NCBI RefSeq assembly: GCF_007993035.1
Contig: NZ_VOOS01000002.1
Span: 434,001 to 498,000, forward strand
Length of the DNA: 64,000 bases
From: Vicingus serpentipes
Lineage (GTDB): Bacteria; Bacteroidota; Bacteroidia; Flavobacteriales_E; Vicingaceae
Direction of reading: 5' to 3'
The translations under genes and the position numbers were made by a program. The notes under the pieces are model-generated. The model saw nothing but the letters and a program-made list of their open reading frames with translations. It was not told the DNA's origin and made no database searches. Shown in pieces: positions 12,336-64,000 of this stretch (the stretch's first letter is position 1; each line of letters begins with the position of its first letter).

Positions 12336-12384
12336 AAAGTAGCAACTAAAGCTTAAAACAATGGTTTTAGATTTTTTTTGCTAA

Positions 12385-12450
12385 CACAATAAAGATTTTA
12401 AGGATAAAACAGACAATATTATTGAAATAGGTAATTGAACAATTATTTAA
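12385..12450 (+). pseudogene. Remnant of an ABC ATPase 3' end
   Basis: 66 bp that align without gaps to the last 22 codons of the ABC ATPase (11694-11759), 50 of 66 bases identical. In that frame the remnant reads HNKDFKDKTDNIIEIGN, stop, TII, stop, against HDKDFADKTDRIIEMGD GMII in the intact gene. An internal TGA and lack of any upstream coding frame show it is dead. Similarity continues weakly for about 15 bp upstream with one base lost. It fills most of the gap between the 184-aa gene and the M13 peptidase gene. Confidence 0.78.
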
Positions 12451-12486
12451 TTACATTTGGATTAACATAATTTTAGAAAAATCCAA

Positions 12487-14538: not shown

Positions 14539-14568
14539 AAATATAAAATTAACATTTTGAACAAACCA

Positions 14569-40839: not shown

Positions 40840-40927
40840 GGAGAAATGGCAGAGCGGTCGAATGCGGCAGTCTTGAAAACTGTTGTACTGCAAGGTACCG
40901 GGGGTTCGAATCCCTCTTTCTCCGCCA
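40840..40927 (+). tRNA. tRNA-Ser(UGA), CCA encoded
   Basis: Acceptor stem GGAGAAA / TTTCTCC (40840-40846 with 40917-40923), discriminator G, encoded CCA at 40925-40927. Anticodon loop CTTGAAA gives anticodon TGA. Long variable arm (GTAC..GTAC, around 40884-40899) is typical of tRNA-Ser, and the T-arm reads GGGGGTTCGAATCCCTC. The gene is intact and marks the boundary between core genes and the integrase-bearing region, so its 3' half is the likely attachment site. Confidence 0.97.
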
Positions 40928-41214: not shown

Positions 41215-42465
41215 ATGAAACAACTAAGAGTTACCCTTTTCATTAAAAATGATAAGGTAGACAAGAAAGGAAATGTTCAAGTCTTCTTGAAAATCAAGTA
41301 CTTAAACACATCTACAACCCTAAGCACCGACTTCTGGGTAGATGAAGAAAAATGGAAAAAGACTACCCAGTTTCTTTTTGCCAAAGCTTTAAAAGAAATT
41401 CACATTAGAAGAAAAATTGATGAACTAATCAATAAAATCCATTTAATTGAACAGAACCTTACCCTAAAAGGAACACAATTTAGTGCTCATACTTTAAAAC
41501 AGGTTTTAGTAAATGGCGAAGACAGTATAATAAATTATCACATTATGCTATCTGACTTATTTAACAAACAATATTCAATTTATATTCCTCTAGTAGAAAA
41601 TGGAATTAGAGCTAAGGAGTCTTTAAGAAAATTCAAAACATTAAACAATCATGTCAATGATTTTTTAAAATATGAGTATGGTTTAGAAAATATTGCCTTA
41701 AACAAGCTTAATTATAGCTTCATAGAAAGTTTTGACATCTTCTTAAGGTCAATTAAAAAGATTGGCAACAACACTACTGTAAAATACATTCAAAGCCTAA
41801 GACAACTTGCGAAGCTAGCAGTAAAACACGATTGGTTAATAAAAGATCCTTTTGCCCTCTATGATAAAAAAATAGTAACCAAGGAAGTTGAATTTTTAAC
41901 TAAAACTGAATTGAGCCTTTTTGAGACTGTAAAACTTCCTTCAAAAAAGCTTGAAGTAGTAAGGGATTATTTTCTTCTCTCTTGTTATACTGGTTACGCA
42001 TACTCTGATATCTTCTCACTAACCTATTCAGATATTCAAAATGGAAATGATGGCCAGAAATGGATTATACATAGAAGGCAGAAGACTAAAATCAAATGTG
42101 ACGTACCTCTTTTACCTCAAGCTGAAGCAATCATAAATAAGTATAGAGATGATTTTAATTGCATAAAAACAAATAAAATACTCCCAGAAAGGTCTAATCA
42201 AAAAATAAACAAGTACTTAAAAGAAATAGCTGAAATCGTCGGAATAGAGAAAAGAATTCACTTTCATTTAGCAAGACATACTTTTAGCTGCACTATAATT
42301 TTAGCTAATGGATTATCTATGGAAGTGCTAAGTAAAATGCTAGGACATACTAATTTAAAACAGACAATGCATTACGGCAAAATTCAAAATCAAAGAGTGG
42401 GTGAAGAAATGAAATTATTAAGAAGTAAACTCACTATAAACACTAGAAAAAGTAATAGTTATTAA
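41215..42465 (+). CDS. Tyrosine recombinase (integrase) of Bacteroidota type
   Basis: Site-specific recombinase, most likely the one that inserted the island at tRNA-Ser. N-terminal arm-binding region (1-~105, VFLKIKYLNTSTTLSTDFWVDEEKW), SAM-like core-binding domain (~115-215), catalytic domain (~225-405). Box II reads HLARHTF (HxxR, ~351-354), then LGHTNLKQTMHYGKI with the nucleophile Tyr (~386). Box I reads SCYTGYAYSDI: the usual first Arg (TGLR) is Ala, a substitution also seen in other Bacteroidota element integrases. 416 residues, complete. It is 290 bp downstream of the tRNA and points away from it. Confidence 0.93.
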   Translation: MKQLRVTLFIKNDKVDKKGNVQVFLKIKYLNTSTTLSTDFWVDEEKWKKTTQFLFAKALKEIHIRRKIDELINKIHLIEQNLTLKGTQFSAHTLKQVLVNGEDSIINYHIMLSDLFNKQYSIYIPLVENGIRAKESLRKFKTLNNHVNDFLKYEYGLENIALNKLNYSFIESFDIFLRSIKKIGNNTTVKYIQSLRQLAKLAVKHDWLIKDPFALYDKKIVTKEVEFLTKTELSLFETVKLPSKKLEVVRDYFLLSCYTGYAYSDIFSLTYSDIQNGNDGQKWIIHRRQKTKIKCDVPLLPQAEAIINKYRDDFNCIKTNKILPERSNQKINKYLKEIAEIVGIEKRIHFHLARHTFSCTIILANGLSMEVLSKMLGHTNLKQTMHYGKIQNQRVGEEMKLLRSKLTINTRKSNSY

Positions 42466-45434: not shown

Positions 45435-47108
45435 TTAATTCAAATAGCCAATTTTTCTTTTAGATTTTGTCACTTTAGACTTCATCAACTCTTGCTTAAT
45501 AAGCTCTTCTATTCTTGATTCATCTTGATTAGAATTAAAAATTCCATCTATTGTATACCTTCTTGACACATTCCCTATCTGCGCACCTGTCAAATCATAA
45601 TTAAAAGATAGTTCCTCTTTTTGTTTTTTAGATAATTCAGGAAAATGATGATGTAATATCTTAAACCGATTATGCTGTTCTGGCTTATCAATTTTTAATT
45701 TGATTAAAAAGCGACGTTCAAAAGCTTTATCTATATTACCAATCAAATTGGAGGTTGCTATCATTATGCCTTTAAACTCTTCCATTTTTTGCAAAAACAC
45801 ATTTTGCATAGAATTATTCATTTGGTCTACAGATGCTTTTACATTTATTCTTTTACTAATTAAAGCATCACTTTCATTAAGAAGCAAAATAGGTGTTCTA
45901 GACTCAATTTTAGATAAACGAACATAATCATCAAAAACCTTTGCAACTCTTTTCTCTGATTCGCCTACATATTTATCTCTAACAGAAGATAAATCAACCA
46001 TAAGGATTTTTCTTCCAGTAATACGAGATAATTGATAAACAAGCTCTGTCTTTCCTGTTCCAGGTGCACCATAAAGCATAACTGTAATGCCTTCCTGTAA
46101 TTTTTTACTCTTAAGCCTTGTTATGCATTTTTTATAATTACTCTCCCTAAGGACTTTCTTTAAATTATTAACCTCATTTAACTCTCTAGAATTGTAAAAC
46201 AAATCGACTTTACTTATTGATTCAGGATTAATAATTTCTCCAACATCAGTCTTAAACACTTTAGCTAAGGTTTTAGTTAGAGTCACTGACATAATTTTTG
46301 CACCAACTTCTCCTAGAAGATAAAACTCATTATCCATAAACACCCCACCCTCTAGTTTTAGGAGTTTTTTTCGAAGCAATATATTTTTTCCGTGAAGTAA
46401 GCTACGCTTAAAGCTTACAAACCTGTTTAAATTTTCATAAACTGCTCGACCAGCGTAATGTACATTCGCACTCCTATCTTCAATAATTGAACTATATGCA
46501 ACAAAAAGAAACACAACTATTTCTTCCCATTTTAATCCCATGGATTTTAATAAATTCAATTCTTTTATTTCGTTAGAACTTTCCAAATTGGCTTTAATTT
46601 CTTCACTAAATTCATCTTTAGTTTGATCAAATCTATTACCCTCAATCAACTGATATAAATTTTGCATAAGATTTACAATAGTTATATCATCATCAATTTG
46701 ATGTGGAATTTCCATCCTAATTATTTGCTTGAATACTTTTTTTCGAACTATTATTCGATCTTCTCCTCTATTCTCTTTTATTTCAATAAATCCTTTTCTT
46801 TTTAAAGATTCAAAATGTTTATATTTCTTATATAATTCAACAACAGGATAACAGATAAAATCAGAAATCTTAACAATAGTACTCTGATAATTATCTCTCA
46901 TCTGTAAATGCATCAACACTGAAAATAAAATCGTCTCGGTAATTGATAGGTTTAATACTAAAGAAAGATGATTAACAATATCAAATTCCTTTCGACCACT
47001 AAGAATATCTTCAGTAGTATCAGAATCTTCTACTTTTGTAAAAAGATTAGCTATCGTTTCAATTTGATCGATCATTGTCTCTGGCATATTGATTTTTTCT
47101 TTTCCCAT
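45435..47108 (-). CDS. AAA+ ATPase with Asn-type Walker B
   Basis: 557 residues. An all-helical N-terminal half (~1-320) without recognised domain, then a classical AAA module: Walker A LYGAPGTGKTE (~346-354), pore-loop-like DKYVGESEKRV, Walker B ILLLNESDALIS (~405), sensor 1 IMIATSNL, arginine fingers AFERRFL. In Walker B the Asp before Glu is Asn; this form occurs in other Bacteroidota AAA proteins, so the enzyme may still be active. Likely partners: the lipoprotein gene 7 bp upstream and the 229-aa gene 4 bp downstream. Cellular role unknown. Confidence 0.9.
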   Translation of the reverse strand: MGKEKINMPETMIDQIETIANLFTKVEDSDTTEDILSGRKEFDIVNHLSLVLNLSITETILFSVLMHLQMRDNYQSTIVKISDFICYPVVELYKKYKHFESLKRKGFIEIKENRGEDRIIVRKKVFKQIIRMEIPHQIDDDITIVNLMQNLYQLIEGNRFDQTKDEFSEEIKANLESSNEIKELNLLKSMGLKWEEIVVFLFVAYSSIIEDRSANVHYAGRAVYENLNRFVSFKRSLLHGKNILLRKKLLKLEGGVFMDNEFYLLGEVGAKIMSVTLTKTLAKVFKTDVGEIINPESISKVDLFYNSRELNEVNNLKKVLRESNYKKCITRLKSKKLQEGITVMLYGAPGTGKTELVYQLSRITGRKILMVDLSSVRDKYVGESEKRVAKVFDDYVRLSKIESRTPILLLNESDALISKRINVKASVDQMNNSMQNVFLQKMEEFKGIMIATSNLIGNIDKAFERRFLIKLKIDKPEQHNRFKILHHHFPELSKKQKEELSFNYDLTGAQIGNVSRRYTIDGIFNSNQDESRIEELIKQELMKSKVTKSKRKIGYLN

Positions 47109-50035: not shown

Positions 50036-51043
50036 TTAGAAAACAAACATTTCACCACGCACATCTTGCTGTTCAATAGCTTTATCATAATACTTATCTA
50101 AAATATTAAGATTATTATTATAAGAGTTATAACTAAATTTATCCAAAATAGATTCTATTATAAATCTACTGTTAGATTTTTCAAACCTTCTACCTTTCTT
50201 ATATAATTCAAAACCTTTACCTACGTATATTGAATAGAAACTAGAAAAACAACATCTATCATGTAAGTTGGCTCCAATTTGGATTTTTTTATCATAAATA
50301 ATTAACTCTATAGATATATTTAAATTTGCAAGATTGCTATTTAAAAAAGTTTTAAATCTTTTGGCAAATTCTATTCTTTCTTTTTGAAGCTTTAGTTCGT
50401 CTTGTAGTTCTATTTTTTTTTCATTTTCTGGTACTTCAGAAAAAATTCTTAAATAACATTTATTATTTGATTTTTCAGGAACTAATGTCTTTATAAACTC
50501 AAGAATATTTTCTTTAATGATGTCTTTATCATCTTTCTTAAAAATATATCGATCAAAAATATAAATTGAATTACTATAATTTGATAAATAATTAATTCCT
50601 TCCCACCCATTCCAACTATATTCACTTGAATTCTCATCTTCAAGGAGATCGAATTTTCTTTCTAAATCTAAAATATTTTTAATTACAGACTCAAATGTTT
50701 CTATATTACAAATTTTTAAATTTCCTCTTGAATTTTCAAAACACCAATCACTATCTTCACTAGTGAAAGCTAGAGCAGGTCGTTTATTATTATAAAATAA
50801 AATATCCTTTACTAAATCATTAGAATAACCTTCAAACTCAGCATAATCAAACAATTTTTCAACTAAAGGGTTTTCGATTACAGCGTTATGATGTTCTTCA
50901 ATAGTCTCAAAATTAATATAGAACTTAACCTTAACAAAAGAGCTAAAAATTTCTAATACTTTTAAATAGGCAATTCTATTTTCTGATTGGTCTAGACAGC
51001 CAAAAAAATCATTTATAAAATCTTTATCAATAAATAAAACCAT
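50036..51043 (-). CDS. HDR-motif protein paired with the AAA ATPase
   Basis: 335 residues, starting 4 bp after the ATPase stop. N-terminal half (~1-110, MVLFIDKDFINDFFG) is unrecognised and begins with an acidic loop as in PIN-like or CRISPR-type nucleases, by eye only. The C-terminal half (~150-310) contains SIYIFDRYIF, then IIYDKKIQIGANLHDRCCFSSFYSIYVGKG, with a His-Asp-Arg motif like that of MITD1-C/PLD-like domains (lHDRf). The protein could be the effector of a two-gene ATPase system. No known family assigned. Confidence 0.7.
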   Translation of the reverse strand: MVLFIDKDFINDFFGCLDQSENRIAYLKVLEIFSSFVKVKFYINFETIEEHHNAVIENPLVEKLFDYAEFEGYSNDLVKDILFYNNKRPALAFTSEDSDWCFENSRGNLKICNIETFESVIKNILDLERKFDLLEDENSSEYSWNGWEGINYLSNYSNSIYIFDRYIFKKDDKDIIKENILEFIKTLVPEKSNNKCYLRIFSEVPENEKKIELQDELKLQKERIEFAKRFKTFLNSNLANLNISIELIIYDKKIQIGANLHDRCCFSSFYSIYVGKGFELYKKGRRFEKSNSRFIIESILDKFSYNSYNNNLNILDKYYDKAIEQQDVRGEMFVF

Positions 51044-51047
51044 AAGA

Positions 51048-52607
51048 TTATTTATTAGTAGCTTTTAAAATTTTAAACTTAGTATTAGTAGCTTCATCAT
51101 AAAAACCTTCTCCAAAATTATCTTGGAACACCCCATTTTCATTAGGGTTTAAATTAATTATTTGAGTTAAATCTTTTTTCTCTTTTTGAAGTTTATTAAT
51201 ATAGTAAATTCTAAATTTATCAGATATAGGTTTCTTACCTGGATTTCCTTCTAATCCTCTATTAGCAATTATAAATTGAAATTTTCGAATCATATATTCA
51301 CTATGGGTTTCTAGAATAAAATGAATTCCAAATAATTCATAACCTTCATAAAACATATCTGCAAGTTTACTCTGAAAATCAGGGTGTAAATTTGCCTCTG
51401 GTTCCTCTATAGATATAACAAAATAGGGAGATAATGGGTTTTCTGGTATTATCTTTTTACAAGAAAAAACATAAATTTGTAAGAGGATTGTAATTAACTG
51501 AGTTGATCCAAATCCTAAATCACTTAAATCACCCCAATGATTATTATTTAATAATTGGACCGAAGTCGTAGAACCATATTCTCTTTTGATTTTTATATCA
51601 TCTCCAAGTTCAAATACAATTAACCATTTATTAAGATAATCTTTTATTTTTTTAAAATCATCAACCTTTTTAGGATTTGACTGACCTAATGCTTTAGCTT
51701 CTTGGTCAACTTTAATGAATTCTTTTAAAAGTAAACCTAAAGGAGTTTTATCGTATTTATCAAAATGTAACCTATCTTGATTACCTCTTATTGTTGGTAA
51801 ATGAACATATCCGTGATAAAGAAAATCAGAAAAACTAGTAGAGAACCTAAATTCTAAAGAATTTTTTAAACCAATAGCTACTTTATCATCTCCTATTTTC
51901 TTTTTAAAATACTGCTCTAAAACTGACCATAGATCAGCATTATGAAGCAAATTTAACTTTCCATCATCTTCATCTCCTTCTCCATAAATTTCATGATAAG
52001 TAATATCAATATATTCTATTGGATAAACATCATCATAAGTACCCATTTTTTTTAGAACATCATATGAATTATCAAGTCCTTTACTCTTCCTTTTACTTCG
52101 TTCAATAATCTTTTGATGATCAGGCAACATCATCCCTTCAAGCATTTCATATAGCAAGTCAAACTTCATCATAATATGAATTTTTTGACCTTTCTGATAC
52201 TCAACAATTCCGATTAACTCTTTCCTAACAACACTATAAAATTCTACAGCATAAACAAAGCCTCTATCAGGATCTTTTTTATCAACTGTATAGCTCATTT
52301 TGATTTTAGGAGTATAGGATGCATCAACTGTAAAGGCAGGCCAAGAGAACGAAGCTTTTGTTGCATGTTTACCATCAAATTGACAGAGTGTTTTCTTAAT
52401 ACTTCCCAATCCATGATCTCCTCCATCAAAATTCAGAATAGTTGGAAACTTATTATTAATAAAATTATCTTTTAACAACAATAAAGACTTAAGTACACTT
52501 GATTTACCCGAACTATTTTTACCTGTAATTACATTTACTCCCGAAAATTCAAATTCCTTATCTCCTTTAAAAACTCTAAAATTCTCAACATTAAAAAATC
52601 TAAACAT
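51048..52607 (-). CDS. AAA15/21-type ATPase (OLD/SMC-like, DUF3696-like end)
   Basis: 519 residues. FRFFNVENFRVFKGDKEFEF with Walker A VITGKNSSGKSSVLKSLLLLKD (~29-40), a long insertion (~60-340) without endonuclease motifs, DLSDLGFGSTQLITILLQI as the ABC-type signature region (~365), Walker B FVISIEEPEANLHPDFQSKLAD (~400) and FILETHSEYMIRKFQ, the end typical of DUF3696-bearing ATPases. No TOPRIM domain is seen. Such ATPases are the sensors or motors of many two-gene defence systems (Septu, PARIS and Gabija have related ATPases). First gene of the pair with the HDR protein. Confidence 0.88.
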   Translation of the reverse strand: MFRFFNVENFRVFKGDKEFEFSGVNVITGKNSSGKSSVLKSLLLLKDNFINNKFPTILNFDGGDHGLGSIKKTLCQFDGKHATKASFSWPAFTVDASYTPKIKMSYTVDKKDPDRGFVYAVEFYSVVRKELIGIVEYQKGQKIHIMMKFDLLYEMLEGMMLPDHQKIIERSKRKSKGLDNSYDVLKKMGTYDDVYPIEYIDITYHEIYGEGDEDDGKLNLLHNADLWSVLEQYFKKKIGDDKVAIGLKNSLEFRFSTSFSDFLYHGYVHLPTIRGNQDRLHFDKYDKTPLGLLLKEFIKVDQEAKALGQSNPKKVDDFKKIKDYLNKWLIVFELGDDIKIKREYGSTTSVQLLNNNHWGDLSDLGFGSTQLITILLQIYVFSCKKIIPENPLSPYFVISIEEPEANLHPDFQSKLADMFYEGYELFGIHFILETHSEYMIRKFQFIIANRGLEGNPGKKPISDKFRIYYINKLQKEKKDLTQIINLNPNENGVFQDNFGEGFYDEATNTKFKILKATNK

Positions 52608-53166: not shown

Positions 53167-56100
53167 TCAATTATTTTGAAATTCTACCATTTTTCCAAGA
53201 ACAGTATAATATATTAACTTTTTTAACACCTTTTTGCATGTTAACTTTTCAATCATTTTTTCATAAGTATTCAATTGACCTAAATATTTACCAGCATAAT
53301 TAGAATTATCTACAGATGTTCTATCTAATATTCTTTCTATTTGACCAGGATAAGATTTATAATCTATTAAAATAAACCCTCCCGATACTTCTAACAACAA
53401 ATCAACTTCACCCTTATATACTTGACCATTAATTTCTGTCTCCAATGATAATTCCCTATACCATTCTTTAGGCTTAAATTCTTTACATATAAAATCATAA
53501 AACAAATCAATAGAGGAAGCAACATCTTTAGAATTAATTATATTATCCATTCGATAATTAATAATAATTCTTTCTATATTATTTAAACTATTATTGGTAA
53601 TATCATTAAGTTTATTTCCCAAGTAGAAGTATAAGATATCATGTAAACAATTTCCTAAAATGTCAACTTTATCTTTTGCTGATGATCCTGTAGGTATTCT
53701 ATTTTGAATATCTGCATAAATAGAAACGTCTACATTATTATTAATTTTAACTTTACTTGGAGAGATAAAATAAGGCTCTATATCACGATTATGATTTAAC
53801 TTCTTACCTAAAAAATATTTATTTTTTTCTTTATTTTCTATTTTATCATCATTGTTCAACTCCAACTTATGCACATGAAAATCAACACCTCTATCAAAAA
53901 CATCAGCTTTACCAGTATCTACATCTGCAAAATCTTCAAATCTCCAATTATCATGATGATTCACAATATCTAACCAAGGATATGCTAAGGTTTCTCCTTT
54001 GATATTAGGTTGTTTATGCATGCCTGTCGTTATTAGGTAATCTCGAGGCCTTGTCATACCAACATACATTACTCTTTTTAATTCGTTTTCATGTTTTGAT
54101 TTAGTTATTCTATATTCTTCTAACGATTTAATATGTGTAACGAAATCTTCAGATGGATTTGATGTTGCTGCACCAAAGCACCAGGGTAAAGACAATATAT
54201 CCCTATCTATTAAAACAGCATCTATGTTAATATTCGATTTATTTTCAATAAATATTCCAAAAACATTTCGAGATATAAACCCCCAATTAACATCTTTCTG
54301 CAACTCTGTTAGAATAACTAATGGCCATTCTAACCCCTTGGATTTATGATAAGTTAAAACGTTTATAGAATCATCATTTACTGATTTACTTTCTGTTAAA
54401 CTACTTTGAGAATCTAGATAATGAATAAATCCCATTATACTAGCGCCCATATTCATATTTATGCATCGATCATCATATTTGTATGCATATTCTATGATTT
54501 TTTGAATATTACTTCGTCTCTGTTCAGACTTACCCCAATTAGTAGTTACATTATAAATATTTAGCCTATTCACTAAATGTTCTATTAATTGGGGTAGAGG
54601 TAAATCTTTTATTTCATTTATTATTGAAGAAATACCGGTTATTAATAGGTTGTCCTTTCCCCAAGAGTTTAATTCATTATAATAATTTTCTCTTTTATTT
54701 ATATATTTTTTTAACTCCTCATTATAGTCAGCATCCTTTAAATCATCTTTATTTGGTTTTTGGGGATAACCAGGTAATTTATTTAAAAATATTAATCTAT
54801 CATCGATTAGATCACCAACATTATATGATGTTTCTGTAAGAATTTTAACCTCTGCTTTTGCTAAAACATTTTCTTTGGATAGAATCAACTTAATTAATGA
54901 AATAATCAAATAATATTCAGCTGTATTTTTAAGATTATCACTTTCTGAAGAGACTTTAATTCCAAAGTTATTTAACTCTTTAGTTAATGTGTTAACTTCA
55001 TCATTCCCTTTACATAAAATTGCAATATCACTTGGCCGTAATATTTTAGATTTTACGACCTCTTCATCGGGATTATTCAAATTTGGCTCCGATTGATCTT
55101 TATCAGTAATTATCCAACTTTCATTTAAAACTTTTACAACACTTTTAGCAACAGATTTAAAGTATGCTGGTTTAGTTGCATCTACTACATTCTCGCCTTT
55201 AGAATTAGTTTTAAATTCAACTAAATTAAAATGATGTAAAGCTGATAATTTAAAACCTTTATCTGTTCTTACAGGTTTTAATGTGATATGTTTTTCTTTT
55301 ACTTGATCTTTTAATGCCGGTTTAAAAATTTTGTTAACACAATCAACTATTTCTGGCCTTGACCTCCATGAATATTCTAAATTATCATTGACTAAACTTT
55401 TCTCTTGATTTTCTTCAAATCTCTTTACAATTGCATCTATTAAAATAGGATCAGTACCTCTAAAACTATAAATAGATTGTTTTGGATCTCCAACCCAAAT
55501 ACTCCTATTTACTATAAATGATAATTTTATAAAAATAGCTAATTGAATAGGACTAGAATCTTGAAATTCATCAACCATTACTAATTTTACTGTATCACGA
55601 ACTTCCTTTTGAACCTCCTTAATTTCGAGTAATTCTAAAAAACCCTTTTCCATATCGGAATAATCAATTAAACCGATTTCTTGTTTATAATTAGTATACT
55701 TTTTTATACTTTTTTCAGCTATATCAAATAATAAATTATTATACTCATCAATATCATTTAACAAGGTTTTAGTTCTATGATAAGCTTCTAGCTGATTCTT
55801 TGAAAATAACAGATCTTGACTTAACAAACCTTGATTTTCAAAATCATCAATAACTAATTTAATTTTCTTTAATTCGGAATATTGAATATTATACTTATTT
55901 ATATCTTTTAAATCCTTAGCTGCTTTTTTTCTTGTTTTATTTCTAGCTTCCGGAAGTTCTTCTCCAATTTTTATAATATTATCAATAATTCGATCTAAAT
56001 CTTTATAATTAATATGCGTACTATTTGTGTTCAGTATTTTTTTTGCGTAATCCAATGATTTTATCTTTGAATTTTCAAAATTTAAAATATTGTTTGTCCT

Positions 56101-56577
56101 TGCTAATTCAATAATTTTTAACAGATCATCTTTCCATTTTGAAGTGTCAACAGTTTTAAAATTGCCTAAAAAATTAAACTTATAACTTAAATCTGTTAGT
56201 CTTTCTAATTGGATTATTGAAGGAACATCGGCGATAGCTTGAGAGAAATAAAAATCAGTATCAGCCTCATCCATAACTTTAATTTCTTTTGGAAAACCTA
56301 TGTAATGCCAAAATTTTTGAATAAACTTTTGACAGACGGCATGAACAGTTCCTATATATGCATTAGTCAAATCATTTGCTTCAATAAACAAGCCTTCTTT
56401 TAGAAGACTCTCCATAGACTTTACTTTGATCTCGTCTGCTGCTTTTTTTGTAAAAGTTGTTAGCATCACCTCGTCAGCTTTACACTCCTTTTCAATAATA
56501 GCTTTATTCAACTCTACAGTTAACCTATAAGTTTTTCCACTTCCTGCACCAGCATTTATAAATGTTATATTTTTCAT
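53167..56577 (-). CDS. AddA-like UvrD helicase with C-terminal PD-(D/E)XK nuclease
   Basis: 1136 residues. SF1A helicase motifs: I FINAGAGSGKTYRLT (~5-19), Ia MLTTFTKKAADEIK, II LVMVDEFQDSSPIQ (~330), III VGDPKQSIYSFRG, IV in NLEYSWRSRPEIV, V VLTYHKSKGLEWPLVIL (~760) and VI VMYVGMTRPRDYL. The nuclease at the end shows GEVDLLLEVSGGFILIDYKSY (~1070) and QLNTYEKMIE. This is the layout of AddA/RecB. Its place in an island with an AddB-like partner 46 bp upstream suggests an accessory, probably defensive helicase-nuclease rather than the housekeeping AddAB, which should be elsewhere. Confidence 0.93.
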   Translation of the reverse strand: MKNITFINAGAGSGKTYRLTVELNKAIIEKECKADEVMLTTFTKKAADEIKVKSMESLLKEGLFIEANDLTNAYIGTVHAVCQKFIQKFWHYIGFPKEIKVMDEADTDFYFSQAIADVPSIIQLERLTDLSYKFNFLGNFKTVDTSKWKDDLLKIIELARTNNILNFENSKIKSLDYAKKILNTNSTHINYKDLDRIIDNIIKIGEELPEARNKTRKKAAKDLKDINKYNIQYSELKKIKLVIDDFENQGLLSQDLLFSKNQLEAYHRTKTLLNDIDEYNNLLFDIAEKSIKKYTNYKQEIGLIDYSDMEKGFLELLEIKEVQKEVRDTVKLVMVDEFQDSSPIQLAIFIKLSFIVNRSIWVGDPKQSIYSFRGTDPILIDAIVKRFEENQEKSLVNDNLEYSWRSRPEIVDCVNKIFKPALKDQVKEKHITLKPVRTDKGFKLSALHHFNLVEFKTNSKGENVVDATKPAYFKSVAKSVVKVLNESWIITDKDQSEPNLNNPDEEVVKSKILRPSDIAILCKGNDEVNTLTKELNNFGIKVSSESDNLKNTAEYYLIISLIKLILSKENVLAKAEVKILTETSYNVGDLIDDRLIFLNKLPGYPQKPNKDDLKDADYNEELKKYINKRENYYNELNSWGKDNLLITGISSIINEIKDLPLPQLIEHLVNRLNIYNVTTNWGKSEQRRSNIQKIIEYAYKYDDRCINMNMGASIMGFIHYLDSQSSLTESKSVNDDSINVLTYHKSKGLEWPLVILTELQKDVNWGFISRNVFGIFIENKSNINIDAVLIDRDILSLPWCFGAATSNPSEDFVTHIKSLEEYRITKSKHENELKRVMYVGMTRPRDYLITTGMHKQPNIKGETLAYPWLDIVNHHDNWRFEDFADVDTGKADVFDRGVDFHVHKLELNNDDKIENKEKNKYFLGKKLNHNRDIEPYFISPSKVKINNNVDVSIYADIQNRIPTGSSAKDKVDILGNCLHDILYFYLGNKLNDITNNSLNNIERIIINYRMDNIINSKDVASSIDLFYDFICKEFKPKEWYRELSLETEINGQVYKGEVDLLLEVSGGFILIDYKSYPGQIERILDRTSVDNSNYAGKYLGQLNTYEKMIEKLTCKKVLKKLIYYTVLGKMVEFQNN

Positions 56578-56623
56578 TATCCTTTTGAGATTTACCTTAA
56601 TTACTAAATTAGTTCAGATAATA

Positions 56624-59314
56624 CTATTTAACTAAGCCTTTAAATAAACCATAATCGCTGTAAGGATTTGGTTTCTTGGTTTTATCTTTAATATCTAAGG
56701 GTATTAAAAAATTAGTTTCTGTATCAATCGAATATTGGATTTCTTCTTCATTCTTCCCTTCTGAATGCTCTAATTTTCCATTTTTAAATTCAGCCCATCT
56801 ATAATTATAAGAATTTACAGTCCTATTAATTATTCTATGATTAACATTATTAAAATCTTCTTGAAGCTTAATAATATTAACTCTATTACCTTCTAATAAT
56901 TCATTTGTAGTATATAATAAAGCATCAGAAATTAAGAAATACCCTGTAAATGAATTCTTATTATTAAGCAGCTTTGAATATAATGCTAGTTGTATGGATT
57001 TTTCCTCTTCTAGTATTTTAACATATTTCTTGGAACTCAAAGTCCATTTTAAGTCAATTATTACAGGCATGTTATTTTTGTAAAATAATAAATCGATTTT
57101 ACCTGAAAAATTAATTGAATCGATTTTACCTTTCGCTTCATATTCAGAAGAATCATAATAAAGATTATTGTCTTTTATTATTTTGAGTAAAACCTTAAAT
57201 GATTTTTTAAGTTGAGTTGAAAAGGACTTAAATTCAAAGTTGTTTTCATCTAAATAAAATGGAGCTGCAATTTTAGGTGTAAATTCTTCTAATAAATTAT
57301 CTATTTCATTATTAATATCAACTTTATTAAAATCAATTACACCATCTTTTTCATTTTGTAATAATGTCTGTATAATGATATGAGACAAATTACCTTTAAG
57401 AGTTATTAATTCATCAATATTCCCAAGCCCTTTACTAGTAATTTTTGCTTGATAATAAAGAATCCAATCTAATGGATTTAATATTAAATCATTTATACTA
57501 CTATAACTTTCTGTCTGTCTTTTATTTAATAAGTCAACATTACTTATTTTAATATAATCAGTCTCCTCAGGTAATTTAACTTTTTCTACAATAGCAAATT
57601 GAGATTCATTCCAATTATAGTTTGCTATACAAGCATTTTCAAATTTAAAATCGTAAATAAAATCTTTTAAATTATCAACAGAAGATGATAACTGTATAAA
57701 TAATGGATGAAGTGAAGTTAAAGTCCCATTAGATTTTTCTGAAATAAATAAACATAATTTATTTTCTGTTCTCAATATTGCCTTTTGAAGGTTGATTATT
57801 TGTAGTTGAATCTGTTTTTCTTTTGACCATAACAAAATCCCTTTTTGTTTTGTTAATTTATTAATTTCAGATTGCATTAAAAATGAACAAAAATTTGCTT
57901 TTAATTCTTGATTATAAAAATCAAACCACACCAAAGTATCTACATTTTCATACAACTGAGATGGTTGTTTTATAACGTTATAACTCCCCTTTTCTTTATT
58001 ATTTATTCTTATATTAATTGATTCATAAATTTTATTCGTGAGTTTATCTAATTCCCTAGAATTAAACTCTATTTCTTTTAAATTTTCGACTGTTTGAATA
58101 AAGCTTTGAGAAAGAATATGTAAATTCAAAAGTTGATCTTTCATTCCTTCTTCCTCAGTTATATTTTGCATTTTAGCAGACCAAGAAGCTAAATTTCTAT
58201 AAACATTTATAAGATCCTCTTTTTTTATTTTTTCAGTTCTTGATCTTCCAATATATAAATCAACTTCCTTTATTTTTTCTTTCCAATTTTTCTTCTCTTT
58301 ATTGATATTATTTTTAAAATAATTAATAACCTCGAACCATTCATTATTACCAATACCTCCACTACTAATTAAGACTTTACTAAGTTCTTTTGCTAGTTTT
58401 TTTGAAAACGGAAGCATAGGAAGACTAAGTAATGACAAAAGATTATAAGGATTTACTTTTTTAAAAAACAATGCGCTTATTAGCTTAAACAATTGTATTA
58501 CTTGTGGATTTGAATCATTTATCTCTGAACCAGAAAGAGGTATATTGTATGTTAAAAATGATGTATCTAAACTATAATTATTTCTATTAATAATAACAGG
58601 ATTTATATTATTATAGGTTAATTGTTGAGCTAAGAAATCTGCAGATACTATAGAATCTTTAAATCGTAAAATTTGAAAACTATTATCATTTTTTTCAAGT
58701 TGTATTTTTCTATTATTATTATAAATAGAATCTTTTATTTTAGATAAATTATTGTTTAAACTTAAATCAACATCTAAATTCTTATTCTTGATATATACAC
58801 CTTTATCTTTAAGTAAAAGAAATATCTCATTATAAATTGGGTGTAAAAACTGAAGATTATCATTTATTTCAATACTCCCTATATTTATATCGTCTACACC
58901 ATTTATAATAGAAAGAATTAAGATCCACCTGTCTGAAATTCCTAAAGATAAATTATTATTTAATTCAATATCTGCGATTAAATCTAAGCGTTCGGATACC
59001 CCTTTATTAAAGTCCCAATTACAAAGTTTTAATTCATCCCTCCATTTTAACAATTCTTTAGCTACCCCAACATTATCGTTATTAAAAGATTCTGAGATAA
59101 ATGAGTTTTTACCCTCTATTTCTTTGCTTAAATATTCTAGATATTCAGCTTGTCTCTCTTTATTAGAAATATACTCTCCACTTAATCCTAACTCACGTTC
59201 TAAAAAACTTAAAAGTTGAAGCTCTCCAACAAATTTTTTATTAAACAAATCTTGTTCTGTCTTGTATATGAAGCTATCATAGCCAGTTGAGAAAATTAAA
59301 TTGGTTTTTATCAT
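56624..59314 (-). CDS. AddB-like protein with PD-(D/E)XK nuclease
   Basis: 896 residues. The C-terminal ~260 residues contain a PD-(D/E)XK nuclease: GKIDSINFSGKIDLLFYKNNMPVIIDLKWTLSSKKY (Asp, then DLK, at ~750-765) and QLALYSKLL. The remainder resembles AddB-type inactivated helicase lobes (e.g. LLSLLSLPMLPFSKKLA, VDTLVWFDFYNQ), without Walker A. Cysteines for an Fe-S cluster as in AddB are not evident. First gene of the AddAB-like pair; the divergent promoter region to the DnaB-like gene contains the CGTAA-N5-TTACG site. Confidence 0.88.
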   Translation of the reverse strand: MIKTNLIFSTGYDSFIYKTEQDLFNKKFVGELQLLSFLERELGLSGEYISNKERQAEYLEYLSKEIEGKNSFISESFNNDNVGVAKELLKWRDELKLCNWDFNKGVSERLDLIADIELNNNLSLGISDRWILILSIINGVDDINIGSIEINDNLQFLHPIYNEIFLLLKDKGVYIKNKNLDVDLSLNNNLSKIKDSIYNNNRKIQLEKNDNSFQILRFKDSIVSADFLAQQLTYNNINPVIINRNNYSLDTSFLTYNIPLSGSEINDSNPQVIQLFKLISALFFKKVNPYNLLSLLSLPMLPFSKKLAKELSKVLISSGGIGNNEWFEVINYFKNNINKEKKNWKEKIKEVDLYIGRSRTEKIKKEDLINVYRNLASWSAKMQNITEEEGMKDQLLNLHILSQSFIQTVENLKEIEFNSRELDKLTNKIYESINIRINNKEKGSYNVIKQPSQLYENVDTLVWFDFYNQELKANFCSFLMQSEINKLTKQKGILLWSKEKQIQLQIINLQKAILRTENKLCLFISEKSNGTLTSLHPLFIQLSSSVDNLKDFIYDFKFENACIANYNWNESQFAIVEKVKLPEETDYIKISNVDLLNKRQTESYSSINDLILNPLDWILYYQAKITSKGLGNIDELITLKGNLSHIIIQTLLQNEKDGVIDFNKVDINNEIDNLLEEFTPKIAAPFYLDENNFEFKSFSTQLKKSFKVLLKIIKDNNLYYDSSEYEAKGKIDSINFSGKIDLLFYKNNMPVIIDLKWTLSSKKYVKILEEEKSIQLALYSKLLNNKNSFTGYFLISDALLYTTNELLEGNRVNIIKLQEDFNNVNHRIINRTVNSYNYRWAEFKNGKLEHSEGKNEEEIQYSIDTETNFLIPLDIKDKTKKPNPYSDYGLFKGLVK

Positions 59315-59385
59315 AATTGGATCTTATTTGATACTAACTTACGAAAAAACAAAAATTTCACATCATAATAATTATAAATAATTGG

Positions 59386-59404
59386 AACGTAATTAGATTA
59401 CGTT
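59386..59404. promoter_or_regulatory. Operator-like inverted repeat, site 1
   Basis: AACGTAAT (59386-59393), TAG, ATTACGTT (59397-59404): perfect 8-bp arms, core CGTAA-N5-TTACG. It lies in the 111-bp divergent region between the addB-like and dnaB-like genes, directly after a TTGG at 59382-59385 and before TTAGTTCG (59406-59413), i.e. between possible -33 and -7 elements of the dnaB-like gene. The same core recurs at 61300-61314. Confidence 0.72.
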
Positions 59405-59425
59405 ATTAGTTCGTATTTTCAACTC

Positions 59426-60295
59426 ATGGAAAAACTAAGCAACCTAATTAATGAATATTACAATCCAAAATCAGACCTTAAAAAAGGTCTTAAACCCATT
59501 ATTAAAACAGGTTTTAAAGATTTTGATGAGCAATTTAGTGGATTTTATAAAGAAGAACTTGTAATTATAGGTGCAAGACCTGGAATGGGTAAATCTCATC
59601 TTACTTTAAAAATGGCTTTTAACCAAGCTAAAGCAGGAAATAAAGTTGGTGTTTATAGTTTAAATTTATCAGCAAAACATATAACTAATTTGTTTATCTC
59701 TTTTATTACCAATATCCCCCCACACAACATCAACTCTGGCGAATTATCTCCAACTGAATTAAACTTAATTACTGATTCTTTAAAAGTATTAAATACGCTC
59801 GAAATTTATATTGAAGAACATATGAGAACTATTGAAGCTTTTCGTAACTCTCTTTCTAATTTATCCAATAAAGAAGTTTTTGATATAATTTATTTAGATA
59901 ATTTACAATTGTTTAGTTTAAAAGAACAAGAAGGAAGATATCTTAATAGAAAAGAAGAAGTTCGTGATATCATTTATGATTTGAAATCATTATCATTAGA
60001 GTTTAACATCTCAATAGTAATTATTTCTCAGCTTAATAGGACACTCGAATTAAGAGGAGGAGAGAAAAGACCACAATTATCAGATATCAAAGAGTCAAGC
60101 TGCATTGAAGAACTTGCAGATAAAGTAATATTTCTTTGGAGACCAGAATATTATGGATTTACTGAAGGAGAAGATGGAAATTCTGTCCTTGACAAAGCTC
60201 ATCTTATTATCGCAAAAAATAAATTAGGCTATACAGGAGAGGTTGAACTTTTTTACAATGGTAGGTTTTCTAACTTTCTTACGTTAGAGAAATAA
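59426..60295 (+). CDS. Stand-alone DnaB-type (RecA-fold) ATPase
   Basis: 289 residues corresponding to the C-terminal helicase domain of replicative DnaB without its N-terminal primase-binding domain. Walker A IIGARPGMGKSHLTLKMA (~50-58), Walker B DIIYLDNLQLF (~160), IVIISQLNRTLELRGGEKRPQLSDIKESSCIEELADKVIFLWRPEYYGF (typical DnaB end of the fold), then IIAKNKLGYTGEVELFYNGRFSNF. Some RNA/DNA-binding Arg residues seem retained. Full-length DnaB should be encoded elsewhere. Pairs with the 189-aa gene 18 bp downstream. Role in the island unknown. Confidence 0.9.
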   Translation: MEKLSNLINEYYNPKSDLKKGLKPIIKTGFKDFDEQFSGFYKEELVIIGARPGMGKSHLTLKMAFNQAKAGNKVGVYSLNLSAKHITNLFISFITNIPPHNINSGELSPTELNLITDSLKVLNTLEIYIEEHMRTIEAFRNSLSNLSNKEVFDIIYLDNLQLFSLKEQEGRYLNRKEEVRDIIYDLKSLSLEFNISIVIISQLNRTLELRGGEKRPQLSDIKESSCIEELADKVIFLWRPEYYGFTEGEDGNSVLDKAHLIIAKNKLGYTGEVELFYNGRFSNFLTLEK

Positions 60296-60313
60296 ACCTA
60301 TTCTTGTAATTGT

Positions 60314-60883
60314 ATGTCAATAGTGATTAATTTATTTGGTAATGGTATAAGGTGTTGGATATGCGAAATACCAATTCATAGATATAACCAACTAAAGGAT
60401 GTTGCTGACTTTAATAAAACATCTCTTAATAATGTTATTTTTGACTTAGAAATCTTAAAAAATCTTGGATATTATCATTGGAAAAATATTTTTCCAATAA
60501 AAGAGATTATTGGGTTTAATATAGAGGGTAATAATAAAATTGAAATTAAGCAAAACGTAAAAACATTATCGAAATTCACTTCAAAAGACATATTTAATGA
60601 GCAAGCTCTTTTTAAACTTTATTCTACAAAAGAAATCGATTTAGAATTTACCAAAAAAGCTAATTATAAATATATTTTAATAGGTCAAACTGAAATAGGC
60701 TCCTACAAATACAAAGTAAAAAAAGAGCCCTTTACTATTGAAAAACTATGCTTTTCTTATTGTCAAGGTATAAATAATAAAAGCTATATGATTGAAATTA
60801 ACTATGAGGGTAATCAATTGTTACCTATAAAAAACGATACTATCATTAGATCATTTTTTATTAATTATTTAAATTTTGAATAG
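60314..60883 (+). CDS. Protein of unknown function behind the DnaB-like gene
   Basis: 189 residues, no signal or membrane helix. The front (~1-60: NGIRCWICEIPIHRYNQLKD, then NVIFDLEILKNLGYYHW) has a pattern seen in element-borne proteins, but I recognise no family. Beta-rich C-terminal half. 18 bp after the DnaB-like ATPase, so probably co-expressed. Its TAG stop abuts the stop of the convergent 126-aa gene without spacer. Confidence 0.66.
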   Translation: MSIVINLFGNGIRCWICEIPIHRYNQLKDVADFNKTSLNNVIFDLEILKNLGYYHWKNIFPIKEIIGFNIEGNNKIEIKQNVKTLSKFTSKDIFNEQALFKLYSTKEIDLEFTKKANYKYILIGQTEIGSYKYKVKKEPFTIEKLCFSYCQGINNKSYMIEINYEGNQLLPIKNDTIIRSFFINYLNFE

Positions 60884-61264
60884 TCAAAATGGAGAATCAA
60901 AATCATAATTTCGACCAGTTTTAGTCTTGAATTTAGATAGGTCATTTATAGATTTTATATGTTCATTAATGATGTCTTTATATTTTAGATAATCTAACTG
61001 TTTTGAAATAAAATTTCGGGCACCCCCCATTGTTTTATAGTTAGAAACATACTTAAACTCAACTTCAGATATAAAGAATTCATCCATACCGTCAACAATT
61101 ATTAATTTTCTAATCCATTCTTCCACTTGTTTTCCAACCTTAACAAAAGTGACGTGAAAGACTTGTTTTTGAGAAATATAAAAGAAGCTCTCATTTGAGT
61201 CTTTAAAGTTTCCCTCTATTAACAAATAATGATGATTGTTTTTGTAATCTAGTTTTTCTAACAT
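60884..61264 (-). CDS. Protein of unknown function with operator-like site upstream
   Basis: 126 residues, cytoplasmic, mixed alpha/beta (HYLLIEGNFKDSNESFFYISQKQVFHVTFVKVGKQVEEWIRKLI). No family recognised. A CGTAA-N5-TTACG site lies 36-50 bp upstream of its ATG, overlapping the end of the WYL gene, so it likely has its own regulated promoter (TTGG at 61306-61309 and TACTTTAC about 17 bp downstream on the minus strand). Confidence 0.66.
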   Translation of the reverse strand: MLEKLDYKNNHHYLLIEGNFKDSNESFFYISQKQVFHVTFVKVGKQVEEWIRKLIIVDGMDEFFISEVEFKYVSNYKTMGGARNFISKQLDYLKYKDIINEHIKSINDLSKFKTKTGRNYDFDSPF

Positions 61265-61299
61265 AAATATTGGTTTTATGTAAAGTAAAAAAACTAGAA

Positions 61300-61314
61300 C
61301 GTAACCAATTTACG
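61300..61314. promoter_or_regulatory. Operator-like inverted repeat, site 2
   Basis: CGTAA (61300-61304), 5 bp, TTACG (61310-61314): same core and spacing as site 1. It overlaps the stop codon of the WYL regulator gene and sits at the -33 region of the presumed promoter for the 126-aa gene. Confidence 0.62.
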
Positions 61315-62335
61315 CTTTGTAATTATTTAAAGATTCTTGTAAAATTTGTTGTAATTTATTTTTTAAATTAATTGGAGAAATAACCTTAACATTATTACCC
61401 ATAGCAAGTATGTCCATAATGAGTTCCCAAGTTAATCTTACATAAATTGAGATAACCACTTCACCTTTAGTTTTATTGATTATTTTTTGAGAATGATGCA
61501 TTGGCATAGATATTATATATCTTGCTTGATTTGGAGTTAAACTCAATTGAATTTCAACAGGGTCTTTTTCAAAGGCGGTTATACCGTAACAATTTTTAAA
61601 AAAACTATCAGGGTTGAAATAATCATCAATCTTAAACTTTTCTTCAGTTTGAGTAATACTTATTATTCTATCTAAACCAAAGGTTTTTATATAATTTATC
61701 TCATTATCATAGCCAATCAAATACCAACGATGCCTAAATTCTTTGAGTAAGTATGGATTTATTTGATACGACTTCACTCCTGCTCCATCATCAAATTTAC
61801 GATACTCCATAACAACAGTATTTTTAATTTTTATTGCAGACAATAATGTTGGAAGATATTCACTTCCTTTAACTTCTGGATACTGATCAAATTGAATGTA
61901 TTTTTCAATTGAAGAATCCTGTATACTTTCTGATAAATTTATACGGTCAACGATTTTAGATATTGCATATTGAAAATCTTTAAAAACCTTGATTCCTTTA
62001 AATTGATTTAAAGTATTCACTGCAAACTTTATAGCCTCTTCATCTCTTTCGTTAAGTGATATTTTACTGATGCTATAATTTGAATCCTTATAATAATACC
62101 CCTTTTCTAATTTAGAATACCTAATTGGCGCATGATAACCTAACAAATCCTCATAACGCATAGCAAACAAATCTTTTTCTATGGTTGAATCAGAAATTCT
62201 TTCACTCCCCATACCATACAATTCTTCTTGACAAGCCTGCTTAAGATCTTGTTTAGATGGATATGGATTATGTTTATTTCTGATTAATTTATCAATAATA
62301 TGATAGCGAAAAAGTGCATATTTATTTGAAGGCAT
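61310..62335 (-). CDS. WYL-domain transcriptional regulator
   Basis: 341 residues. N-terminal winged helix (~1-85, ALFRYHIIDKLIRN, then YGMGSERISDSTIEKDLFAM), WYL domain (~150-240: NTVVMEYRKFDDG, YLLKEFRHRWYLIGYD) and the C-terminal WCX extension (~255-341). WYL proteins of this kind (BrxR, CapW) repress defence operons by binding inverted repeats and release on an infection signal. The CGTAA-N5-TTACG sites are the natural candidates for its operators. 27 bp after the ADP-ribosylglycohydrolase gene. Confidence 0.94.
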   Translation of the reverse strand: MPSNKYALFRYHIIDKLIRNKHNPYPSKQDLKQACQEELYGMGSERISDSTIEKDLFAMRYEDLLGYHAPIRYSKLEKGYYYKDSNYSISKISLNERDEEAIKFAVNTLNQFKGIKVFKDFQYAISKIVDRINLSESIQDSSIEKYIQFDQYPEVKGSEYLPTLLSAIKIKNTVVMEYRKFDDGAGVKSYQINPYLLKEFRHRWYLIGYDNEINYIKTFGLDRIISITQTEEKFKIDDYFNPDSFFKNCYGITAFEKDPVEIQLSLTPNQARYIISMPMHHSQKIINKTKGEVVISIYVRLTWELIMDILAMGNNVKVISPINLKNKLQQILQESLNNYKA

Positions 62336-62362: not shown

Positions 62363-63292
62363 TTATTCTAGATTATTTGCAATAGACCTTTCTGCTAATT
62401 CAAACAAATCGTCTTTTCTTGCTAACTTATTAATCCATACCTCGGGTATTTGCTCAAACCCATAATACAATCCTGCTAAGCCTCCTACCACAGCCCCAGT
62501 TGTATCAGAATCTCCGCCTAAGTTAACAGCTTTTAACACTGCATCATAAAAACATTGTGTTGAGAGCAAACACCACAAAGAAGCTTCCAGAGTATGAATA
62601 ACATAACCATCACTTTTAATTTTATCTTCAGGGAAGTCAATCAAAGCTCCTGATAGTATCCTATCAAATTTATCACCCAAAACATCTTCTAAATTGTTGC
62701 TATTTATATAATCGTTTATATTATTTATAAGCACCTCATAAGCCTGAATAATATTATAATTTTTATAGAGTAACAAGGCGAACTCTAAATAAACAAAACA
62801 AGAAAAAACAGAGTAAATATGAGCATGTGTTATACTCGACACATCTTTAATCAATTCAAATCGATCTTCAATTGGTTTATCTCGAATAAGATAAAGTAAT
62901 GGTAGTATTCTCATTAATGATCCATTCCCATTTGAAAATTCATCTGACTGCCCTGCTTCTATTGGAGAAACCCCTTGAATTAAATTAATAATTGACAATT
63001 GGGTTGTACCACCAATATCAAAAACATCCCCATGAGGAGTCCAATAATTATGCTCATACCAATTAATAAACCTGTTACTTAATTTTTGAAGAGAAAAAAC
63101 TTTATCATTTAATGTTTCTATCAAACATAATGTCATTGAAGTATCGTCACTCCAAGTTCCTTTAGGCTGATTATATGTTCCATAACCAGTCATAGATGAA
63201 ATCGGATTTTTTTTTAATTCGTTACGATTTACGAACTCAACCGGAACCCCCAACGCATCACCAACTGCAATTCCAAAAATTATTCTCTTCAC
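62363..63292 (-). CDS. ADP-ribosylglycohydrolase family protein
   Basis: DraG/ARH-type enzyme that removes ADP-ribose from proteins or nucleic acids. 309 residues, GTG start at 63292 (family start MKRIIFGIAVGDALGVP). Two-metal site: GTWSDDTSMTLCLIE (~46-60) and GGDSDTTGAVVGGLAG near residues 258-273. Helical all through. Transcribed with the HNH-like gene (11 bp upstream) and the WYL gene. It may reverse ADP-ribosylation by a partner, e.g. the ART-like protein at 48458, or act on phage or host modification. Confidence 0.95.
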   Translation of the reverse strand: MKRIIFGIAVGDALGVPVEFVNRNELKKNPISSMTGYGTYNQPKGTWSDDTSMTLCLIETLNDKVFSLQKLSNRFINWYEHNYWTPHGDVFDIGGTTQLSIINLIQGVSPIEAGQSDEFSNGNGSLMRILPLLYLIRDKPIEDRFELIKDVSSITHAHIYSVFSCFVYLEFALLLYKNYNIIQAYEVLINNINDYINSNNLEDVLGDKFDRILSGALIDFPEDKIKSDGYVIHTLEASLWCLLSTQCFYDAVLKAVNLGGDSDTTGAVVGGLAGLYYGFEQIPEVWINKLARKDDLFELAERSIANNLE

Positions 63293-63303
63293 TTATATTA
63301 GTT

Positions 63304-63669
63304 TTATTTTTTATCATATTCTTTATGACAATCCTTACATAATACTCTTATAACTTTACCTAATTTATCAATAGAATGAATATCAATAAAAATATCTTTA
63401 AACTTAGTTAAATCAACATTATAACTGCTAATGTTCCCCTTAAAAGTTTTTTCTTTAAAATTAGAATCTAAAATTTCTGTAATAATATCTACTCTAGATT
63501 CTATATGAGCTGCATCTAATGGTTTCTTCTGTTTTTTACAATCTTGACAAAAACCATTATGGTGTCCTTGATTATATTTATATTTTCTAGTAGTGTTTTG
63601 AACTGAATTTCGACACCAAGCTCCTAAATACTTTTTAAACTCTTCAGCTGTTCCAATAAATGTTGCCAT
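63304..63669 (-). CDS. HNH-like zinc protein
   Basis: 121 residues. Two zinc knuckles, FCQDCKKQKKPLDAAHI (~40-56) and VLCKDCHKEYDKK (~108-121), frame a region with His of AAHI at the usual place of the HNH first strand; the catalytic His-Asn pattern is only partly visible. Small HNH-type proteins of this kind are frequent in islands beside ADP-ribosylation genes. Own promoter (TATCTTTG at 63691-63698) about 20 bp upstream of the ATG. Confidence 0.7.
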   Translation of the reverse strand: MATFIGTAEEFKKYLGAWCRNSVQNTTRKYKYNQGHHNGFCQDCKKQKKPLDAAHIESRVDIITEILDSNFKEKTFKGNISSYNVDLTKFKDIFIDIHSIDKLGKVIRVLCKDCHKEYDKK

Positions 63670-63690
63670 AAATAATATATTATGTTAAGC

Positions 63691-63698
63691 CAAAGATA
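63691..63698 (-). promoter_or_regulatory. -7 element of the HNH/ADP-ribosylglycohydrolase/WYL operon
   Basis: TATCTTTG on the minus strand, full match to TAnnTTTG. A T-rich -33 region is about 22 bp upstream. Predicted start near 63685, 16 nt before the HNH-like ATG. Confidence 0.5.
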
Positions 63699-63724
63699 AT
63701 TTTTTAATAGCTTCTATTTTAAAA

Positions 63725-64000
63725 CTAAAAAAACATAGCCTTAGAATACCCCAATGAAGACATTGCTTTTTGTAAATAAGAAATAGCTCTTATCTTAACA
63801 CTCGCAACTTGCTTCGAAGGTATATTTAACTTGTCAGCTATTTCATTATAACTAAGCTCCTCAAAATAAACCATACTTATAACATCTGCATGCCTTGAAG
63901 GTAAATTAGCCAATACTTCCTTTAATATCTTATGGTTCATTTTATAATTTATCAACTGGTCAGAAACATCACTTGTTTTTAAAGCATATTCACTTTTTGA
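63725..64000 (-). CDS. Sigma-70 region-4-like protein (5' end outside window)
   Basis: The frame is open from 63725 to the window edge, so the TTG at 63955 is not a real start; upstream codons read SKSEYALKTSDVSDQL. The visible 91 residues contain a sigma region 4 helix-turn-helix: VLANLPSRHADVISMVYFEELSYNEIADKLNIPSKQVASVKIRAISYLQKAM. Probably the C-terminal part of a sigma-70 family factor, likely ECF-type. It ends 55 bp before the HNH-like ATG, beyond the latter's promoter, and may regulate the island. Confidence 0.85.
   Translation of the reverse strand, partial: SKSEYALKTSDVSDQLINYKMNHKILKEVLANLPSRHADVISMVYFEELSYNEIADKLNIPSKQVASVKIRAISYLQKAMSSLGYSKAMFF

Follow-up and report, generated by a model that had tools for sequence, protein, structure and literature searches.

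A second, mobile AddAB-type helicase-nuclease in Vicingus serpentipes: a candidate defence module probably under WYL control

Why would a bacterium that has its own AddAB enzyme carry another of this type on a mobile island, and which of the adjacent genes belong with it? These questions are raised by positions 53167-62335 of a 64,000-nucleotide stretch of the Vicingus serpentipes genome (NZ_VOOS01000002.1, positions 434,001 to 498,000; hereafter the window), where a first-pass annotation had proposed an undescribed defence locus consisting of an AddA/AddB-like pair, a DnaB-like ATPase, two small proteins and a WYL regulator. That proposal held in part: a second AddAB-type enzyme, located in a mobile island and probably under WYL control, is present, whereas a defence system of exactly this gene set is not borne out, the families of 289, 189 and 126 amino acids (aa) being found in none of the 86 loci with the pair that were compared. 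We lean towards the view that the locus holds a hitherto undescribed defence module of AddAB type, controlled by the WYL protein and joined here by local accessories; the defence role is one that we infer from sequence and gene context. The features of the locus are:

53167-56577, minus strand: AddA-like superfamily 1 (SF1) helicase with a C-terminal RecB-type PD-(D/E)XK nuclease, 1136 aa; Pfam UvrD-helicase and UvrD_C
56624-59314, minus strand: AddB-like protein, a degenerate helicase fold without Walker A and with a C-terminal PD-(D/E)XK nuclease, 896 aa; Pfam PDDEXK_1
59386-59404, no strand: operator-like perfect palindrome AACGTAAT-TAG-ATTACGTT between the AddB-like and DnaB-like starts, from pattern matches and a genome-wide scan
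59426-60295, plus strand: stand-alone DnaB C-terminal (RecA-type) ATPase, 289 aa; DnaB_C 4.4e-61
60314-60883, plus strand: 189-aa protein of a small family with varied contexts
60884-61264, minus strand: 126-aa protein for which no relatives were found
61298-61316, no strand: another operator-like palindrome, with a single mismatch in one of its arms, that reaches into the 3' end of the WYL gene
61310-62335, minus strand: WYL+WCX-domain regulator, 341 aa; PF13280 and PF25583; presumed to bind the two palindromes

All six open reading frames (ORFs) were recovered at the positions and lengths first described. On the minus strand, the AddB-like gene (59314 to 56624) is followed, after 46 bases, by the AddA-like gene (56577 to 53167). 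The DnaB-like gene starts 111 bases upstream of the AddB-like gene on the opposite strand and is separated by 18 bases from the 189-aa gene, confirming the divergent arrangement of the two pairs. The 126-aa gene (61264 to 60884) is convergent to the DnaB-like/189-aa pair and is preceded by the WYL+WCX gene (62335 to 61310). For the 189-aa and 126-aa proteins, no convincing family was found with Pfam, PADLOC or NCBIfam profiles.

By sequence and predicted fold, the large pair is an AddAB-type helicase-nuclease. The best match of the AddA-like profile in the PDB is AddA (3u44_A, E 2e-78), and the conserved residues of the AddA-like protein include Walker A, DEFQD and the nuclease motif. As the first-pass annotation had claimed, both nuclease sites are intact, in the AddA-like protein (H979, D1059, D1072-x-K1074, Q1101xxxY1105) as well as in the AddB-like protein (H645, D741, D754-x-K756, Q775xxxY779); these residues are invariant in the respective alignments, and the motif pattern is found in 50/52 AddA rows and 70/72 AddB rows, native proteins included. 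An AlphaFold2 model of the AddB-like protein, built from a 32-row alignment (the window protein and 31 of the 72 genome loci described below), has a mean pLDDT of 86, and in a Foldseek comparison with the PDB, the AddB chain of B. subtilis AddAB accounts for its five best matches (best E 3.1e-19, TM 0.57), followed by RecC and AdnA. No Walker A pattern occurs in the first 90 residues of any of the 72 AddB rows (the native one included), so AddA should be the sole motor. The AddB-like protein has no family match in PADLOC 2.0.0 or NCBIfam (E <= 0.01 for each). The AddA-like protein falls below both NCBIfam AddA cut-offs (182.6 against 707.65 bits for TIGR02785; 143 against 860.75 for TIGR02784), as does the native AddA of this genome (163.7 and 148.5 bits, respectively), which makes this equivalog test weak in Bacteroidota.

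The pair is not the only such set in the organism, and it was rightly called a second one: the genome encodes its own AddA (1056 aa, contig C1) and an AddB-type frame of 927 aa (contig C4). Recent duplication of the native genes was considered as its origin and dropped, given that the window AddB-like protein has no blastp match to native AddB and that the AddA-like protein scores 43 bits against native AddA compared to 642 bits against its nearest relative, in locus L081. FastTree phylogenies, in which branches are long and support is local only, place the window AddB-like protein within a 7-row Bacteroidota group, in a tree with rows from 10 phyla, and the AddA-like protein beside that of L081 in a Bacteroidota clade, each apart from its native counterpart. 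On the evidence of these scores and tree positions, the window pair is a second set that is barely related to native AddA and AddB.

Single-sequence scans of genome contigs and viral contigs with the AddB-like protein found nothing, and a single-protein search among relatives of the organism matched 3 of 297 genomes, one being its own. An 11-row AddB-like profile identified 72 genome loci and matched no viral contig. An AddA-like gene directly follows the AddB-like gene in 58 of these loci; nine are cut by a contig end, four are unpaired, and one, L126 from Beijerinckia (8770-14730), encodes AddB and then AddA within one 1986-aa protein. This natural fusion, in which AddB has no ORF of its own, speaks for a physical AddB-AddA complex. 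Among plasmids, AddB-like matches were found in 26 of 72,556 records, and in all 14 of the loci that were opened, a UvrD-helicase gene immediately follows the AddB-like gene (split in two in L037 and L039); together with the genome loci, these make up the 86 loci. Carriers of the pair include named strains in culture, from Rhizobium, Sinorhizobium, Sphingomonas and Lysinibacillus. Judged by these matches, the AddB-AddA pair is conserved on its own, across unrelated bacteria. Separately, on an unverified faecal 'phage' scaffold (L163, MT835507.1 14922-35219), which may not be a phage but a bacterial island, an AddB-AddA pair is accompanied by an IetA-like ATPase, by a gene that resembles SIR2 and by one with weak similarity to WYL.

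The palindrome AACGTAA-N5-TTACG is located both between the AddB-like and DnaB-like genes and before the 126-aa gene. Within the window, AACGTAANNNNNTTACG occurs exactly only at 59386-59402 (mirror 59388-59404) and at 61298-61314 (plus strand; one mismatch on the minus strand), the first site being 21 bases away from the start of the DnaB-like gene, which it precedes, and 71 bases away from that of the AddB-like gene. The second site precedes the start of the 126-aa gene by 33 bases. Across the genome, the 16-base core ACGTAANNNNNTTACG is found in three places, namely, these two sites and one within a coding sequence that we take, from recognition of the sequence, to be that of EF-Ts; the reversed control pattern occurs nowhere in the genome. 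Allowing up to two mismatches, AACGTAANNNNNTTACG has 13 matches against a mean of 5.06 in shuffles (largest 10), a count inflated by palindromes counting twice. The shared operator sites from which the first-pass annotation had inferred co-regulation, at 59386 and 61298, are thus real. Co-regulation of the locus here is well supported by these predicted sites, and the pair is probably under the control of the local WYL regulator through them. The inverted repeats to which the WYL repressor BrxR is reported to bind have a spacer of 5 bp (PMC9122601), and CapW is reported to bind palindromes over promoters, with the repressor released in infection (PMC9122588); the geometry of the locus palindromes agrees with both types of site. 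As described for BrxR and CapW (PMC9122601, PMC9122588), a WYL+WCX protein and short-spacer palindromes occur together in a defence locus. At the N-terminus of the window protein, no helix-turn-helix (HTH) model was matched (Pfam, E 0.1), and the likeness is one of domains and sites, with DNA binding predicted. Of the 86 loci, 8 have a WYL gene no more than 1 kb from the AddB-like gene (gaps of 8 to 639 bases; four of the eight represent one Sinorhizobium/Ensifer lineage), and five more have one at 3.0-7.6 kb, one of these five being the same record twice (L039, L099).

Alternatively, two unrelated modules, AddB-AddA on the one hand and the DnaB-like, 189-aa and 126-aa genes on the other, may have come under one regulator on being brought together in the island. 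In line with this, genes of the 189-aa family are found near WYL genes, without AddAB, in three of eight other loci (L021, L022, L023); yet, palindromes at the start regions of both modules exceed what side-by-side insertion alone predicts. We consider this scenario doubtful, although it is compatible with the module that we favour.

The first-pass annotation had placed the locus in an integrase-borne island, and this is the case, the boundaries being set by attachment-site copies 68.9 kb apart at whose left end are:

40840-40927, plus strand: tRNA-Ser, the insertion site of the island, with attL core CCTCTTTCTCCGC at 40913-40925
41215-42465, plus strand: island integrase, 416 aa, resembling an integrase-like ORF in L017 (E 6.5e-30)

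The tRNA-Ser 3' end (40913-40925) recurs at G000:C2:543833-543845, outside the window, as attR, and the integrase beside the tRNA-Ser gene is presumably of the tyrosine type. Homology to the same-genus genomes G001 and G003 ends at the tRNA end (40927); the right flank was matched in none of G001, G003 and G006, which leaves the left junction as the one backed by related genomes. As the attachment site, the tRNA 3'-end copy was preferred to a 21-bp repeat at 41051 and C2:543750. Eight of 10 island proteins searched with PADLOC had a match at 1e-8, and besides the pair, the island carries IetA-like, DrmMII/MTase_II-like, PDC-M26A-like and MzaB/D/E-like genes. In the right half (G000:C2 ~502000-519000; L015, L158), cytosine methyltransferases accompany the MzaB/MzaD/MzaE-like genes. 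A 519-aa AAA_15 protein (51048-52607) has NsnB as its best PADLOC match (2.9e-35), with weaker GajA matches (best E 9.3e-12), and together with a 335-aa neighbour without any family, it constitutes a candidate two-gene defence unit at 50036-52607. The 557-aa AAA ATPase at 45435-47108 is IetA-like by PADLOC (E 4.9e-24); its relatives occur near the AddB-AddA pair in four loci (L085, L100, L104, L163) and adjacent to a member of the 189-aa family in L023. At 62363-64000, upstream of the WYL gene, closely spaced minus-strand genes, possibly forming one operon with the regulator, encode a sigma-factor-like protein, a CxxC/HNH-like 121-aa protein and an ADP-ribosylglycohydrolase.

In the plasmid loci, where neighbours within 8-9 kb were judged by annotated product names, a recognised defence gene is found near the pair in eight of 14 (L033, L034, L035, L036, L038, L039, L041, L042), a raw count that includes the related pairs of loci L034/L042 and L039/L041. 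These neighbours are CBASS, restriction-modification (R-M), ThiF/multiubiquitin, SIR2 and AbiEii genes. A separate neighbour scan covered 92 of 162 proposed ORFs plus two hand-added WYL ORFs from 35 loci; with its ORFs selected and hand-added, its WYL count of two is no evidence.

The pair could instead be a horizontally acquired spare repair AddAB that serves double-strand-break repair or recombination of the island, with the defence genes around it as fellow passengers. In its favour are the AddAB fold and active sites, the related unpaired AddB genes on Bacteroidota chromosomes, and the presumably UmuDC-like genes that the island carries close to its right end. Against this stand the native AddAB already present, the patchy, plasmid- and island-borne distribution of the pair, and the repeated defence neighbours, and we regard a spare repair enzyme as unlikely. 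Nevertheless, several observations weigh against a WYL-controlled defence module. A profile search of 395 genomes of the phylum gave 73 matches, nearly full length in only three (the organism's own, G183 and G446), and in the two latter, chromosomal Bacteroidota cases, the AddB-like gene has housekeeping-looking surroundings and no adjoining AddA, so part of the AddB-like family may simply be repair AddB. The unpaired loci are L087, L140, L143 and L152, of which L143 and L152 are partial matches. The C-terminal cysteine motif CxxC-x(3-9)-C, presumably the iron-sulphur cysteines characteristic of AddB, occurs in 52 of the 72 AddB rows and is absent from the window protein and the other Bacteroidota rows. 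No WYL gene was found in the available flank of 73 of the 86 loci, some on short contigs, and when the stretch separating WYL from AddB was scanned for palindromes by simple means in six other loci, it yielded one weak site only, which is evidence against a conserved operator and suggests that WYL control may be local. Finally, six of the 14 plasmid loci have no clear annotated defence gene (L027, L028, L029, L030, L037, L040), and the 8/14 figure is a raw count, which does not amount to enrichment.

What of the remaining genes? The DnaB-like protein contains the DnaB C-terminal RecA domain and no DnaB N-terminal domain, matching the NCBIfam DnaB profile only at 175-434 of 435. Among the matches listed from 199 genomes of relatives, no stand-alone counterpart was found, all others residing in frames of at least 379 aa with at most 39% identity. 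A tblastn search matched 1219 of 72,556 plasmid records, but most of the 30 listed are annotated as replicative DnaB, which makes these matches uninformative; a scan of viral contigs gave nothing. The 189-aa family is represented in 8 of 149 relatives, the window's own included, and none of eight other loci has an AddAB pair nearby. In a same-genus locus (L016, 4435-8125), a 62%-identical 189-aa protein is encoded 10 bases behind an Eco57I/type IIG R-M gene and is followed by a NYN-domain gene. Searches with the 189-aa protein matched no plasmid or phage record and one viral contig (L162, 639-1208; 64%), which borders an element that encodes a phage-type primase/helicase; a single-sequence structure prediction was unusable (pLDDT 31.6). 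The 126-aa protein had no match in other genomes (149 searched). The DnaB profile, the 189-aa family profile and the 126-aa sequence matched nothing in the 86 loci, where the proposed co-occurrence of the 896-, 289-, 189- and 126-aa families was accordingly not seen, so the six-gene 'system' is not conserved, and the candidacy of the 189-aa protein as a regular member of the pair was dropped. That these proteins and the AddAB-like enzyme act in one mechanism, as a true multi-gene defence system, is very improbable in view of these absences and of the eight 189-aa loci without the pair, for all that the operators are shared and the closely spaced DnaB-like and 189-aa genes are divergent from the AddB-like gene. 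From their distribution, all three appear to be local additions, that is, locus-specific accessories.

Like B. subtilis AddAB, the window pair has adjacent AddB-AddA genes, one SF1 motor, an AddB fold and a RecB-type nuclease in each subunit, but its AddB-like protein lacks both the C-terminal CxxC...C and an N-terminal Walker A, its AddA-like protein scores far below the AddA cut-off (182.6 vs 707.65 bits), and the pair is mobile, residing in a defence island of a genome that also has a native set. In Hudaiberdiev et al. 2017 (PMC5704561), fused UvrD-Cas4 proteins are linked to defence, some with WYL genes, and given this precedent, the general idea is not new. These fusions share with the pair a UvrD helicase, a RecB/Cas4-type nuclease and defence contexts; compared by description, they differ in being one protein adjoining type III R-M or Dcm/Vsr genes, whereas the pair has a separate, conserved AddB-fold subunit with its own nuclease. 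Gabija GajB is likewise a UvrD-type helicase, and PADLOC GajB models match the helicase part of the AddA-like protein, but the latter carries its own nuclease and is partnered by an AddB fold; no GajA (OLD-type ATPase-nuclease) partner was found, the AddB-like protein having no PADLOC match at 0.01. In the open-licence literature searched, with most subscription work outside it, we found neither a two-gene AddAB-like defence system nor a separate AddB-fold partner in defence islands with a wide distribution; the phrase 'AddAB-like' appeared in one paper, on staphylococcal repair.

Under the module that we favour, the core would be a mobile two-subunit helicase-nuclease, with an AddA-like SF1 motor, a motor-dead AddB-like subunit and one nuclease in each. 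This complex would most likely load on free double-stranded DNA ends, such as those of entering phage genomes or of replication and cleavage products, and degrade both strands, acting against invaders as a specialised enzyme distinct from the host repair AddAB. The WYL protein would sit as a repressor on the two palindromes, most likely releasing them on infection or a DNA-damage signal and thereby inducing AddB-AddA at the same time as the 126-aa gene and the divergent DnaB-like/189-aa pair. As a guess, the DnaB-like, 189-aa and 126-aa proteins might act at the replication fork or in sensing.

More tentatively, and with less than even confidence, the pair could represent a widespread undescribed defence system: a mobile heterodimer of AddAB type that plasmids and islands have carried into at least 10 phyla and that is in part WYL-silenced. 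At this locus, it would have gained a truncated DnaB ATPase and two small proteins controlled through the same operator, coupling DNA-end destruction to replication-fork attack or sensing. Because the pair consists of only two genes and is present in cultured strains, it is directly testable. RecBCD and AddAB are housekeeping enzymes often inhibited by phages; if our reading is correct, a second, divergent, inducible and mobile copy would provide a defence out of reach of inhibitors that target the host's own enzyme, and it would explain the uncharacterised 'PD-(D/E)XK nuclease / UvrD-helicase' gene pairs in defence islands.

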